Source: Guyparkeria hydrothermalis (GTDB taxonomy: Bacteria; Pseudomonadota; Gammaproteobacteria; Halothiobacillales; Halothiobacillaceae). From it: a stretch of DNA of 64,000 bases. This document shows, piece after piece, positions 19,720-25,296 of this stretch. The DNA is taken from the NCBI RefSeq assembly GCF_023555375.1, contig NZ_JAJSEE010000003.1:1-64000 (forward strand). Reading direction: 5' to 3'. A model generated the notes under the pieces. It ran no database searches. It was not told the DNA's origin and was given only the letters and a program-made list of their open reading frames with translations. The position numbers and the translations under genes were made by a program. Each line of letters starts with the position of its first letter. The first letter of the stretch is position 1.

Positions 19720-20028
19720 TCAGTGGCCTCCGCCCTGGCAGGCCGGCGAGGCGGGGGCATCCTGGCGGGCAGCCCATTCGGCTGGGCTGTAGGTATGCAG
19801 CGCGAGGGCGTGCAGGCCCTGCTCGAAGGCGGGCTTGAGCGGGTCCTGCGCCAGCCGGTGGCGACGGATCAGCGGCAGGCCGTCGAAGCGATCACTGACC
19901 ACTACCACCCGGAAGTGGCTTTCGATGCGGTCGCCGGCGTGCTGCGCCGACTCGTCGGTGATCTCGAGATGGCTCGGGGCAAGCTCCGCTCGGAGGGTGT
20001 CCTCGATCCATTGCGCGCGTGTGGTCAT
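19720..20028 (-). CDS. bolA: BolA family protein
   Basis: A 102-residue BolA/IbaG-type protein, partner of monothiol glutaredoxins in iron-sulfur metabolism and a stress morphogene. The helix-strand pattern SHFRVVVVSDRFDGLPLIRRHRLA and the terminal HALALHTYSPAEWAAR are typical BolA signatures, including the conserved late His. It sits 35 bases downstream of a GGDEF-EAL gene on the same strand. Confidence 0.88.
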   Translation of the reverse strand: MTTRAQWIEDTLRAELAPSHLEITDESAQHAGDRIESHFRVVVVSDRFDGLPLIRRHRLAQDPLKPAFEQGLHALALHTYSPAEWAARQDAPASPACQGGGH

Positions 20029-20063: not shown

Positions 20064-22082
20064 TTACAGCAGCCGTACGCCCAGCAGCGGGCGGATGGCA
20101 TCGGCCGGGGTCGGTCGGCCGATCAGGTAGCCCTGGAAGGAGTGGCAGCCCAGCGAGTCCAGCAGATCGCGCTGCTCGGTGGTCTCCACCCCCTCGGCGA
20201 TGATCTCCAGCGACAGGGCATTGCCCATCGCGATGATTGCCCGGACGATCTCCAGGTCGTTGCGGTCGCCGAGGATGTCGCGCACGAAGCCCTGGTCGAT
20301 CTTCAGCCGGTCGAACGAGAATCGCTTGAGATAGCTTAGCGACGAGTAGCCGGTGCCGAAATCGTCCAGTGCCAGGTGGACCCCGAGCTCGCGCACGGCA
20401 TCCAGCATGGTGGCCGCCTGTTCTGGATCATGGACCAGCGCGGTCTCGGTGAGTTCCAGTTCCAGTCGCTCGGGGGGCAGGCCGGAGATATCCAGGGCGC
20501 GTGCGACCCGGTCGGCAAAACAGGGGGCGTGCAGCTGAACGCTGGAGACGTTGACCGAGACGGTGATCGCCTCGCCGGTCTCTCGGCCCCACTCGGCGGC
20601 CTGGCAGGCCGCCTCGGTCATCACCCAGCCGCCGACTTCGACGATCAGCCCGGACTGTTCGAGGAAGGGGATGAAGTCCTGCGGGCCGCATTGCAGCTCC
20701 GGGTCGGGGGCATCCCAGCGCAGCAGGGCCTCGACGCCGGTCACGGCCAGGCCCAGCGCGTCCTGCTGGATCTGGTAGACCAGGTGAAAACGCTCGTGCT
20801 CCAGGCTGTCGCGCAGGGCGCCCAGCATCTCCGAGCGCCAGATCTGCCGTTCGGAGAGTTGCGGGCTGAATACCGCCACCGGTTCGCGCTCGTTCTTCTT
20901 CGCCTCGAACAGTGCCGCGTCGGCTTGAGTGAGCAGCTGGGCGACGTGGCGACTGTGCGTGGGCCAGAAGGCGATGCCGGTGCTGGCGGTCATGATCAGA
21001 TTGGTGCTCTCGAGCTCGAATGAGCGGCGCATCAGCTCGCGCAGGGCCTCACCCAGTACCTCGGGGCCGTCCTCCGGCTCAACGTCGCCGGCGAGGATGG
21101 CGAACTCGTCGCCGGACAGGCGGGCCACCAGCCAGTCTTCACGCGCGCCCAGTTCCCGCAGCCGGTCGGCCACCTGGCGGATCACGCGGTCGCCCTCCTC
21201 GTGGCCATGGCAGTCGTTGATGGTGCGGAACCGGTCGAGGTCCAGCACCGCCACTGCTGCGTGGCGGTTCTCCCGACCCAGCTCGTCCAGCCGCCGCTGC
21301 GCCTCGATCTGGAAGAAGCGACGGTTGTAGAGGTGGGTGAGTTCGTCGTGGATGGCCAGGTCTTCGTACTCGGCCTGCGCGCGCAGCTGGGCGGTGATGT
21401 TGCGCGCGATCACGATGATCGCGTGGCGCTTGCCGTCGGCGTCGAAGACCGGTTGCTTGATGGTCTCGAACACCTCTTCGTCGCCCTCCGGCGAGGTCAC
21501 CACCTCGGTCTCGCGGTGGATCTCGCCCGCCGCCCAGGCACGCTGGTCCGATTGCTGACAATGGTAGAAGGTGTCGCGGAAGCACGGTTCGGTCAGTTCC
21601 GCGAGTGCGTCGTCGTCACGGCCCCACCAGGGCAGGCCCTCGAGGCGGAACAGGTCGAGGGTGGCCTGGTTGGCCAGGAGCCAGCGCCCCTTGCCATCCT
21701 TGACCATGATCACGTCGGGGCTGGCGTCGATCATCAGCCGAACCAGGCGCTCGGTCTCGGCCAGCGCCGACTCGGCGCGCTTCACGCTGGTCACGTCCTG
21801 GAGCAGGTGCAGCTCGCGCGGGGTGGCCTTGGGATCGGGATGCGAGCCGAGATGCAGGTGGCGATACACCCGGTGCTCGTCGCTGTCGCTGGGCGGGTGA
21901 CTGATCAGCCGCGGGCCGGCGTCGCCCTCGCGGTCGTCGAGCATGCCCTCGAGCTTGCTGCTCGCCGGCATGGAGCGCGCCGCCCGATTGATCAGGTGCA
22001 GCCGGCCATCGGCGTCGCGTCCGACCAGCGGATCGGGCAAGGCCTCGAGCCAATGCGAGATATCGTGTCGGCGATCCATCAT
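20064..22082 (-). CDS. PAS-PAS-GGDEF-EAL cyclic-di-GMP signalling protein
   Basis: A 672-residue soluble protein with no membrane segment. Two PAS-like modules (about residues 10-60 and 115-230; the second begins MIDASPDVIMVKDGKGRWLLAN) precede a GGDEF domain (ARLSGDEFAIL, an accepted SGDEF variant, without an RxxD inhibitory site) and an EAL domain with EALLRW and DDFGTGYSSLSYLKRFSFDRLKID. Both catalytic domains look competent. The ATG pair at 22082/22079 is chosen. Upstream of it, only 5 bases separate the start from repeat element C, and the only ribosome-site match is a weak GAGAG. Confidence 0.9.
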   Translation of the reverse strand: MMDRRHDISHWLEALPDPLVGRDADGRLHLINRAARSMPASSKLEGMLDDREGDAGPRLISHPPSDSDEHRVYRHLHLGSHPDPKATPRELHLLQDVTSVKRAESALAETERLVRLMIDASPDVIMVKDGKGRWLLANQATLDLFRLEGLPWWGRDDDALAELTEPCFRDTFYHCQQSDQRAWAAGEIHRETEVVTSPEGDEEVFETIKQPVFDADGKRHAIIVIARNITAQLRAQAEYEDLAIHDELTHLYNRRFFQIEAQRRLDELGRENRHAAVAVLDLDRFRTINDCHGHEEGDRVIRQVADRLRELGAREDWLVARLSGDEFAILAGDVEPEDGPEVLGEALRELMRRSFELESTNLIMTASTGIAFWPTHSRHVAQLLTQADAALFEAKKNEREPVAVFSPQLSERQIWRSEMLGALRDSLEHERFHLVYQIQQDALGLAVTGVEALLRWDAPDPELQCGPQDFIPFLEQSGLIVEVGGWVMTEAACQAAEWGRETGEAITVSVNVSSVQLHAPCFADRVARALDISGLPPERLELELTETALVHDPEQAATMLDAVRELGVHLALDDFGTGYSSLSYLKRFSFDRLKIDQGFVRDILGDRNDLEIVRAIIAMGNALSLEIIAEGVETTEQRDLLDSLGCHSFQGYLIGRPTPADAIRPLLGVRLL

Positions 22083-22087
22083 CTCTC

Positions 22088-22182
22088 GGGGAAACCCTGC
22101 ACGCATGCCATGCCACCCTGGCTTGGCGAGCCGTTCGTGATCAAGGCGCGCCGAGCGGTAAGGCATTCGTGCACATTTTCCC
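22088..22182 (-). repeat. Terminal-inverted-repeat intergenic element, copy C (95 bp)
   Basis: Ends GGGGAAACCCTGCACGCATGCC (written in part) and GGCATTCGTGCACATTTTCCC are imperfect inverted copies. The short core (GGCTTGGCGAGCCGTTCGTG, ATCAAGG) matches copy A in the same orientation. It is the shortest copy and looks internally deleted. It fills 95 of the 109 bases between the PfkB-Rieske stop and the GGDEF-EAL start. Confidence 0.72.
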
Positions 22183-22191
22183 TAGCCACGG

Positions 22192-23475
22192 TCATCGTTG
22201 GACGCTCCCCTCGCGATGGGTCGCCGGGGGCGCGTTGCCATGAGGCGCCCGATCGGCCAGGTAGATCCGGTTGTCGACCCGTTCCAGGGCGACCGCTTCG
22301 AGCCGCTGTCCCTCGCAGGGGCCGGCGGTGCACAGCCCGTCGTCGAGCTGGAAAAAGGCCTGGTGCACGTTGCAGCGCAGTTGCCGTTCGCCCTGGCGCG
22401 TCTCGAGAAAATCGTGCCGCTCCCGCGACAGTGGCGAGCCGTTGTGCGGACAGACGTTGCGCCAGGCACAGACCCGCTCGCCGTGGCGCACCACGATCAG
22501 CGGCGCCGGCCCGCCCGACGCGCGGCCCTGCGGCCACACGCCGATGGCGTCGATCGGCTCGAGGTCCTCCAGCCGGCACAGGAGGTCCGGATCGTCGGCC
22601 GGATCGTTCGGACCCAGCCCTGCCAGCCCGGCCTGCATGAGCTTGCGTTCGGCCAGTCGCACGGCGAATTCCAGCGATTCCAGTGAACCCATCCCGCGCG
22701 CGCGGGCGTGGATGAACCCGGCGATCAGGGTGTCGCCGGCGGCGATGCTGTCAATGACCGTATCGACCGGTCGGGCCGGAACATGAGCGGGCTCGGTCTC
22801 GTCGGGACGCGACAGCCAGGCCCCGCCGCTGCCCCAACCGAGCACCAGAATGGCCTGCGGCGCCCAGCCACGGGCCTCGCGCAGGAAGGCCGCCGGCTCC
22901 TCGAAGCCGCGGCCGTGGGCGAAGGCCCTGGAGAAGAAGATGACGTCGGGAAAGGACCAGAGCTGGTCGAGGTCCGGCCGGTCCTTCTCCACCTCCAGCG
23001 AGATGGGCTGGTCGGTGACCCGCGCGCGCGACAGGGCCAGCATGGCGGCCGTCTCGTCGCAGGCGCGTGCCTCGAAATGCAGCCAGTCGTACTCGCTCGG
23101 GTCGAGGGCCATGAACGCGCCCAGGTCGAATTCCGGCAGGTCGCGCCAGTGGACGATGGTGCGGCTGCCGGTGGCGCGGTTGACCGTGATGTAGGAGGTG
23201 GGCGCGTGGCCCTCCACCCGCCGTGCGTGGCGGGTCTCGATGCCGTAGCGATCCATCAGGTCGGCGATGCGTCGCCCGTCGGCGTCTTCCGCCAGCACGC
23301 CGGCGAACTCGACCGGGTGACCGAACTGGCGCAGCACCCGCAGGCTGTTGGCGACATTGCCGCCGAGCTCCACGCGCTGGGCAACGGCGCGCTGCTCGCT
23401 GTCCTCGGCCGGGTAGTGATCGAGCTCGTTGATGATGTCCAGCGTGGCTATCCCCACGCCCAGCACGTTCGCCAT
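22192..23475 (-). CDS. PfkB-family sugar kinase fused to a Rieske [2Fe-2S] domain
   Basis: A 427-residue protein with two different parts. Residues 1-295 form a PfkB/ribokinase fold closest in look to ketohexokinase-like members: the N-terminal GGN at 38-40 and the anion-hole/catalytic motif DSIAAGDT with catalytic D248 (Ala replaces the usual first Gly). Residues about 300-410 form a Rieske domain with C342-P-H344 and C368-NV-H371, the four cluster ligands, followed by the GP loop in LCTAGPCEG. There is no stop or frameshift between them. The substrate is unknown. It lies between a phosphodiesterase gene and element C. Confidence 0.85.
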   Translation of the reverse strand: MANVLGVGIATLDIINELDHYPAEDSEQRAVAQRVELGGNVANSLRVLRQFGHPVEFAGVLAEDADGRRIADLMDRYGIETRHARRVEGHAPTSYITVNRATGSRTIVHWRDLPEFDLGAFMALDPSEYDWLHFEARACDETAAMLALSRARVTDQPISLEVEKDRPDLDQLWSFPDVIFFSRAFAHGRGFEEPAAFLREARGWAPQAILVLGWGSGGAWLSRPDETEPAHVPARPVDTVIDSIAAGDTLIAGFIHARARGMGSLESLEFAVRLAERKLMQAGLAGLGPNDPADDPDLLCRLEDLEPIDAIGVWPQGRASGGPAPLIVVRHGERVCAWRNVCPHNGSPLSRERHDFLETRQGERQLRCNVHQAFFQLDDGLCTAGPCEGQRLEAVALERVDNRIYLADRAPHGNAPPATHREGSVQR

Positions 23476-23513: not shown

Positions 23514-24059
23514 CTACGTGTCCCGGCCGCGCTTGGGGAGGGTTACCGCCTCCACCTGCCACTCGTCGACGGTGGCCGTCAGGCGCAGGAAGCCGATCCC
23601 GCCGAAGGCGCGCTGCCGGCCGGCGGCGCCCGGGTTGAGCACCCAGGGTGTCTCGTCGGTGTCGATCACGCGCCGGTGGGTGTGGCCATAGACGATCGCG
23701 CGCGCCTCCGGGTGACGGCGTCGCAGCCGCTCGTGGCGGGTGCGGGCGGGATTGACGCGATGGCCGTGCTCGACCACCAGCCGCCCGCCCGGCAGGTCGA
23801 GGTAGGCCTGCTCGGGCAGGGTGTCGAGCAGTGCCTCGGTGCCTTCCGGCCACTGGCCCGGGGTGTCGTTGTTGCCGCGCACGACCACCAGGTGGCCGCT
23901 TTTCGGGGCCAGCTGGCGCAGTTCACCGGGATCGAGCAGGTCGCCGGCATGGACGATCACGTCCACCTCGGCCAGCCACGGCAGCAGGACGCGTTCCAGC
24001 GTGCCGTGCGTGTCGCTGATCAGGGCGAGCGTGACTCGCTCTTGGTCACCGAGATCCAT
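23514..24059 (-). CDS. YfcE/MJ0936-type metallophosphodiesterase
   Basis: A 181-residue calcineurin-like phosphodiesterase. Motifs: LALISDTHG at the start, VIVHAGDLLD, VVVRGNNDTP, VEHGH and YGHTHR, then VLNPGAAG. This is the complete small YfcE-type active site; activity on phosphodiesters is known for relatives, the natural substrate is not. The ATG at 24059 starts 6 residues before the first strand and overlaps the upstream permease gene by 14 bases, indicating coupling. Confidence 0.85.
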   Translation of the reverse strand: MDLGDQERVTLALISDTHGTLERVLLPWLAEVDVIVHAGDLLDPGELRQLAPKSGHLVVVRGNNDTPGQWPEGTEALLDTLPEQAYLDLPGGRLVVEHGHRVNPARTRHERLRRRHPEARAIVYGHTHRRVIDTDETPWVLNPGAAGRQRAFGGIGFLRLTATVDEWQVEAVTLPKRGRDT

Positions 24060-25296
24060 CCCGCTCTGATGCACAACCACAGGCTTCCTCCCCTGACGCT
24101 TGGCCCGATCCCTGGCTCGGTGCGCTCCGGGCCCGCCGCCGGCGCCAGTAGGCATGAATGGTGACGGCGGTCAGTACCGCCAGCGACGCGATGCCGATCG
24201 CGTTCGCTTCCATGGCGTGGCCGGCGGCCGCCCCGCTCGGCAGGCTCCAGTCGAACGCCCGCCACAGCAGGTCCAGCGCAATCCCGGCGACCAGCGCGCA
24301 GGCGATCACGGTCACCAGGTACAGCGTGATCAGGCGGTTGCCGAAGTGCTTTCTCAGGATGCCGAGCGTGCCGATGTTGGTGGCCGGCCCGGCAAGCAGG
24401 AACACCAGGGCCGCGCCCGGCGACATGCCCGCGACCAGGAGCCCGGCGGCGATCGGCGTCGAGGCGGTCGCGCAGACGTACATCGGGATGCCGATCACCG
24501 CCATCAGGAGGTAGCTGCCCACCAGGCCCCAGGCGTTGTCGAAAAAGCCGTCCGGGATCAGCACCACCGCCGTGGCGGCCACGGCCAGGCCGAAGACCAT
24601 CCACGGCACGATGTCGATCAGCACCTGGCCGAAGGCGTAGGCAAAGCCGCCGGACAGGCGGTCGCGGGCACTCGGCTGGTCCGTTCTCGAGGTCGCCTCG
24701 CCATTGCCGCAGCAGGATGCACCGGATGCCGCCTCGTCGCTGTCGCAGTGGCCGGTGATCGATGGGGTCGAGTCGCAGCAGCTGGCCGCTGTCGGGTTCG
24801 TCTCCCCGCCACAGCAGCCGCTGTCCCGTTCCTCGCTACAGCAGCCATCGACGGCCGCCGAGGGGCTTGTCGTGGCCGCGTGGTCCGGCGCGGGCCCGGC
24901 CAGTCGACCGCTGACCACGCCGGTGACGATCGCGCCGAGGATCGCCGCGATCGGGCGGGCAATGGCATAGACCGGTCCCAGCATGCCGTAGCTGACACTG
25001 ATCGAATCCGGCCCGGTCTCCGGCGTGGCGACCAGGAAGGCCATCGACGGCCCGCGTCCGGCCCCGGCATCCTTGAGGCCCAGCACCGCCGGCACCACCC
25101 CGCAGGAACACAGCGGCAGCGGTGCGCCGATGAATGCCGCGCGAGTGATCGCGCCGGTCGACTCGCCCGACAGGTACTTGGCGATCGCCAGCTGGTCGGA
25201 GAACGCCTTGATCAGCGCGGCGATCACCAACCCCAGCAGCAGCCAGGGGGCGGCCTCCAGCGTCAGGAACCACAGCTCGTTGAACCATTGCGTCAT
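24046..25296 (-). CDS. SO_0444/DUF318-type heavy-metal permease with Cys-rich loop
   Basis: A 416-residue inner-membrane permease. About four transmembrane segments on each side flank a cytosolic loop (roughly residues 148-215) carrying many CC pairs (GCCSEE, GCCGGE, SCCDS, SCCGNG) suited to binding Cu or Zn. The conserved PLCSCGVVP motif has C63 and C65, and ATPETGPDS and AGPATNIGTL are family motifs of SO_0444-type Cu/Zn efflux proteins. A second CGC is near the C-terminus. AGGAGG fixes the ATG at 25296. The substrate metal is inferred from family only. Confidence 0.83.
   Translation of the reverse strand: MTQWFNELWFLTLEAAPWLLLGLVIAALIKAFSDQLAIAKYLSGESTGAITRAAFIGAPLPLCSCGVVPAVLGLKDAGAGRGPSMAFLVATPETGPDSISVSYGMLGPVYAIARPIAAILGAIVTGVVSGRLAGPAPDHAATTSPSAAVDGCCSEERDSGCCGGETNPTAASCCDSTPSITGHCDSDEAASGASCCGNGEATSRTDQPSARDRLSGGFAYAFGQVLIDIVPWMVFGLAVAATAVVLIPDGFFDNAWGLVGSYLLMAVIGIPMYVCATASTPIAAGLLVAGMSPGAALVFLLAGPATNIGTLGILRKHFGNRLITLYLVTVIACALVAGIALDLLWRAFDWSLPSGAAAGHAMEANAIGIASLAVLTAVTIHAYWRRRRARSAPSQGSGQASGEEACGCASERDGSR

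Follow-up and report, generated by a model that had tools for sequence, protein, structure and literature searches.

A single gene of the window (the whole stretch of 64,000 nucleotides of Guyparkeria hydrothermalis DNA analysed here) was found to encode a ketohexokinase-type PfkB kinase joined in frame to a C-terminal Rieske [2Fe-2S] domain. The kinase–Rieske pair recurs in some 25 families, has by a parsimony reading been fused three times and follows Rubisco from genome to genome, which points to an unrecognised step of sugar metabolism in autotrophic Gammaproteobacteria. The pair is tentatively read, at somewhat less than an even chance, as a ketose 1-kinase that uses ATP, serves autotrophs and methylotrophs and is tied to redox state through its Rieske partner. 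Each domain is of an already known kind. What is new relative to the literature searched is that the two are paired, have been fused repeatedly and go with autotrophy; no description of a PfkB or sugar kinase paired with a Rieske protein was found there.

Coordinates and integrity of the fused gene

The earlier note had described one frame holding a PfkB kinase and a Rieske domain with the four ligands C342, H344, C368 and H371. This was confirmed by the open reading frame, Pfam matches and alignment, and the gene was placed on the minus strand, which the note had left unstated (Table 1). PF00294 (PfkB) was matched over residues 4–277 (E 1.6e-25; 90.5 bits, curated cut-off 25.8) and PF00355 (Rieske) over residues 324–390 (E 5.2e-8; 33.1 bits, curated cut-off 20.3). 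Membership of both families was further supported by the aspartate of the PfkB C-terminal signature (D248) and by a full set of C-x-H ... C-x2-H ligands. A ribosome-binding-like AAGGA lies just 5' of the ATG. The GC content of the gene was 70.6% (67.9% for the window, which contains zero N).

Table 1. Positions of the fused gene, its domains and motifs, and the two flanking genes in the window.
Feature	Position	Strand	Basis or remark
Fused ketohexokinase-type PfkB kinase and Rieske gene	22192..23475	minus	ATG to stop, 427 aa
PfkB/ketohexokinase domain, residues 1–288	22612..23475	minus	PF00294, human KHK identity, model fit to 6ul7
Catalytic Asp248 (human KHK D258) in S-I-A-A-G-D-T	22732..22734	minus	Alignment; 76/76 relatives
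Rieske [2Fe-2S] domain, about residues 292–408 (Pfam core 324–390)	22252..22602	minus	Kinase-linked Rieske profile
First Rieske ligand box, C342-P-H344	22444..22452	minus	
Second Rieske ligand box, C368-N-V-H371	22363..22374	minus	
Extra cysteine pair, C382 and C387 (C-x2-G-P-C)	22315..22332	minus	Beyond second ligand box
Metallophosphoesterase (Metallophos_2) gene	23514..24155	minus	Directly upstream of fused gene
PAS-GGDEF-EAL protein gene	20064..22166	minus	Directly downstream, 25-bp gap

As the earlier note had remarked, the kinase motif around D248 reads AAGD in place of GAGD. AAGD was shared by 11 of 74 classified relatives (GAGD in the remainder) and is compatible with the PfkB signature pattern; it was dismissed as an unusual motif and assigned to ordinary variation. 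A sequencing error joining two genes, named in the earlier note as what might undo the observation, was likewise rejected, as was a chance fusion: the full kinase and Rieske frame with all ligands was kept in 45 of 46 loci picked as fused, and the single failing locus (L047) carried a frameshift in its kinase part. Intact fusions came from four families, namely Halothiobacillaceae (the family of the window), Thiomicrospiraceae and two others.

Assignment of the kinase half

The best solved relatives of the kinase were human and mouse ketohexokinases (KHK; E 7e-44 to about 1e-43), followed by sulfofructose kinase (1e-13), and the kinase domain was about 34% identical to human KHK. An AlphaFold2 model of the protein (mean pLDDT 86, pTM 0.75) was matched to human KHK-C (PDB 6ul7) with Z 41.1 and an rmsd of 1.3 Å over 287 residues, whereas sulfofructose kinase and ribokinases each gave Z 34. 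Both sequence and fold therefore placed it with eukaryotic-type ketohexokinases over other PfkB enzymes. In a mutational study of human KHK, D15, N42 and N45 were essential, R141 and K174 were important and D258 served as base (PMC11332825). All six of these fructose-binding and catalytic residues were kept in the window protein (D13, N40, N43, R137, K164 and D248) and were invariant in 76 of 76 relatives. Because of the KHK homology, the fold match and the six retained residues, a predicted ATP-dependent ketose 1-kinase activity, within that branch of the PfkB family to which eukaryotic KHKs belong, is well supported.

Human KHK-A/C (PDB 2hlz, 2hqq and 6ul7) thus share the fold, fructose pocket and catalytic residues of the window protein, which differs in being bacterial, in its C-terminal Rieske part and in that its kinase activity is predicted. 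Sulfofructose kinase YihV (PDB 7ag6), the next best relative of known function, is also a PfkB ketose kinase, but is 25% identical and has no Rieske part. A haloarchaeal enzyme reported as the first prokaryotic KHK with a physiological role is likewise a PfkB-family protein that makes fructose-1-phosphate; its kinship to eukaryotic KHKs is described as no more than distant, and its gene is clustered with 1-phosphofructokinase and aldolase genes (PMC11519228). Judged from the description in that paper, the protein studied here is set apart by its eukaryotic-type match, its Rieske partner and its setting, in which no 1-phosphofructokinase/aldolase cluster was seen. The fused gene was the sole PfkB gene found in the window genome, so no PfkB-type 1-phosphofructokinase was found there to use fructose-1-phosphate, a point against the function proposed below. 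The relatives form a wide bacterial set close to human KHK, and this KHK-like clade appears uncharacterised within the literature searched.

Fusion and adjacency across genomes

Domain architecture and phylogenetic spread were surveyed in 369 Gammaproteobacteria genomes, of which 102, from 55 families, carried the kinase; the same genomes were searched with a profile (A2) built from Rieske proteins linked to the kinase. Kinase and Rieske were fused, or separated by a few tens of bases, in 39 of the 102 genomes and 25 of the 55 families. The two were on the same strand in every case, with the Rieske 3' of the kinase except in G270, and the kinase stop and Rieske start overlapped by 4 bases in L098, L120 and L128. 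A phylum-wide draw gave just two matches, each within this class, from which no absence in other classes is concluded.

Within Halothiobacillaceae, the query was matched over both domains in 24 of 26 other genomes. The remaining two assemblies are incomplete (G003 with partial matches, G008 with no match). The named genomes nearest to the fused protein were those of Guyparkeria and Halothiobacillus, which are sulfur-oxidising autotrophs. Among other named genomes, those of Hydrogenovibrio and Thiomicrorhabdus had the same architecture at 34–38% identity.

Three changes of the label 'fused' were required on a maximum-likelihood tree built from 76 kinase domains (Halothiobacillaceae with one neighbouring family; Thiomicrospiraceae; one lone family), a parsimony count on a tree whose bootstrap is not fully settled and whose deep branches are poorly resolved. 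Genes that are adjacent in some genomes and repeatedly fused in others are classic evidence of a functional link. Such a link between kinase and Rieske is accordingly supported by the 25 families and three fusion events, much more strongly than by one gene alone, and to this extent the interpretation given in the earlier note, a real fusion of functionally linked parts, is upheld. That note had also named wide occurrence of the fusion with a known function as a ground for refutation; the occurrence proved wide, and no known function was found.

Character of the Rieske half

C342, H344, C368 and H371 were invariant in a 13-sequence alignment, and the Rieske ligands were kept in 42 of 42 kinase-linked copies. 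Modelled alone, the domain (pLDDT 86) resembled NirD and the soluble Rieske ferredoxins of dioxygenases (e.g., PDB 1vck and 7bui). CarAc (1vck), BphF (1fqt) and NirD share its Rieske fold and C-x-H / C-x2-H ligand boxes, but are about 18–25% identical; the window domain differs further in an additional invariant C-x2-G-P-C and in being partnered with a kinase, not with an oxygenase or nitrite reductase. The window protein fell outside the NirD family (TIGR02378, equivalog-domain; 19.9 bits, cut-off 74.65) and outside the dioxygenase ferredoxin subunits AndAb and HcaC (AndAb, 14.5 bits against 150). The separate Rieske proteins of the pair were also far under the NCBIfam ferredoxin-subunit equivalog cut-offs, and no oxygenase was seen near them.

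The Rieske part seems to modulate and not to catalyse, since no Rieske of this kind was detected in 43 of the 102 kinase-bearing genomes; in another 20 it was encoded elsewhere in the genome. The pair C382/C387 was invariant in alignments A1 and A2 and in 42 of 42 kinase-linked Rieske sequences, and was also present in stand-alone Rieske relatives without the kinase (L137, L139, L141 and L143). It could form a redox-active disulfide beside the cluster.

The resemblance to dioxygenase ferredoxins and NirD would be expected if the Rieske instead carried electrons for another enzyme, an oxidoreductase acting on the substrate or product of the kinase, the two proteins serving consecutive pathway steps with no mutual regulation. 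Kinase and Rieske are indeed often separate proteins, and Rieske relatives were present in 82 genomes that have no kinase. In the loci examined, however, no oxygenase or reductase gene was a recurrent neighbour of the pair, and three direct fusions favour contact with the kinase itself; we consider this reading rather unlikely. The suggestion of the earlier note that the kinase product is handed to an oxygenase or reductase is likewise left without support by the lack of such a neighbour.

Two of the stand-alone Rieske relatives (L139:2650-4916 and L141:3861-5563) adjoin large proteins that by eye resemble SLC13/ArsB-type transporters.

Metabolic setting

The Rubisco large subunit was detected in 94 of 102 kinase-bearing genomes versus 82 of 267 Gammaproteobacteria genomes that lack the kinase (odds ratio 26; raw counts, kinship ignored), after RuBisCO matches weaker than about 1e-30 had been dropped by eye. 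Counted by family, again raw and with kinship ignored, it was present in 52 of 55 kinase-bearing families versus 34 of the remaining 127 (the total of 182 being the highest family label seen). The window genome has Rubisco. Among the eight kinase-bearing genomes without it, three belong to one family (f3) and encode hexulose-6-phosphate synthase above the cut-off, which points to the RuMP pathway; another is the incomplete genome G309.

Sucrose genes were also associated with the kinase, less tightly than Rubisco: PF00862 was matched in 64 of 102 kinase-bearing versus 38 of 267 other genomes and, among Rubisco-positive genomes only, in 60 of 94 versus 30 of 82. In the window genome, one sucrose cluster (L133:9303-13877, contig 3) comprises a GH100 neutral invertase, a sucrose-phosphate synthase with a phosphatase domain and a separate sucrose-phosphate phosphatase. 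These findings would suit plain fructose salvage, in which invertase or sucrose synthase would cleave the sucrose made for use as compatible solute, the fructose so released would be phosphorylated by the kinase and the Rieske would be an accessory. Against it, 38 of the 102 kinase-bearing genomes had no PF00862 match, the Rieske is left unexplained and a second candidate fructokinase is commonly present. A ROK kinase of the window genome was nearest to Mak-type fructokinase, yet under the cut-off of that family (381 vs 443 bits), and Mak-like proteins were found in 33 of 45 kinase-bearing genomes tested and in 18 of 35 Rubisco-positive genomes without the kinase (two weak matches left out). 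A role as the only fructokinase of the cell was rejected on these counts. Since the two kinases occur together, the KHK-like enzyme does not replace Mak, and its presence is not accounted for by fructose salvage alone; we regard salvage as unlikely.

Proposed function of the kinase–Rieske pair

In the redox-coupled ketose 1-kinase that we favour, a free ketose would be phosphorylated by ATP at its C1 hydroxyl to give a ketose-1-phosphate. The substrate might be fructose, or else some pentulose or heptulose that has escaped from the Calvin or RuMP cycle. The Rieske would act as a soluble-ferredoxin-like C-terminal redox module, in cis when fused or in trans when separate. The genomic linkage makes redox gating plausible: the oxidation state of the cluster may set the activity or stability of the kinase, so that output of ketose-1-phosphate would track the redox state of the lithotrophic cell. 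It would then be, to our knowledge, the first sugar kinase under the control of a Rieske cluster. The product might allow stray Calvin or RuMP ketoses to be recycled through aldolase cleavage, or might be a signal such as fructose-1-phosphate, an effector of Cra in E. coli (PMC11157272). The fuller version, in which the cluster is reduced or oxidised with the respiratory or electron-donor state of the chemolithoautotrophic cell and so switches the making of ketose-1-phosphate, as a signal or for the clearance of stray ketoses, is possible but on the doubtful side. If true, a redox-gated ketose kinase would be a new mode of sugar-kinase regulation, and iron-sulfur gating of a sugar kinase could be tested with one purified protein.

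Flanking genes

The genes around kinase and Rieske differed from family to family and were housekeeping genes in Thiomicrospiraceae and Thioalkalivibrio. No conserved metabolic operon that would name the substrate was present among the kinase loci examined, and identification of the substrate from operon context was abandoned because of this variation. Phosphoribulokinase was encoded within several kb of the kinase in 5 loci and Gph/Rpe near it in a few, too loose a proximity to build on. That neighbours vary, and that 63 of the 102 kinase-bearing genomes have no adjacent Rieske, might suggest inherited gene order or shared expression, with the fusions as neutral read-throughs free of functional coupling, but the pair persists while its surroundings change, three fusions are placed on the kinase tree and the Rieske ligands are invariant in all linked copies, which leaves this improbable.

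In two further loci of Halothiobacillaceae, L134 and L135, a homologue of the Metallophos_2 gene likewise lies upstream of the kinase. The PAS-GGDEF-EAL neighbour probably lies outside the kinase–Rieske function; just past it, at window positions 19720-20028, is a BolA-family gene.

In seven loci (L125:7299-12569, L097:7749-13226, L091, L092, L124, L126 and L129), a large homologous protein of 700–1880 aa was encoded 5' of the kinase. The two copies tested contained two cyclic-nucleotide-binding domains, a rhodanese domain and a C-terminal formylglycine-generating-enzyme-like domain, an odd combination. In L094 and L122, from a family with RuMP-pathway genes, the kinase–Rieske pair comes directly after a gene that by eye resembles adenylate kinase.
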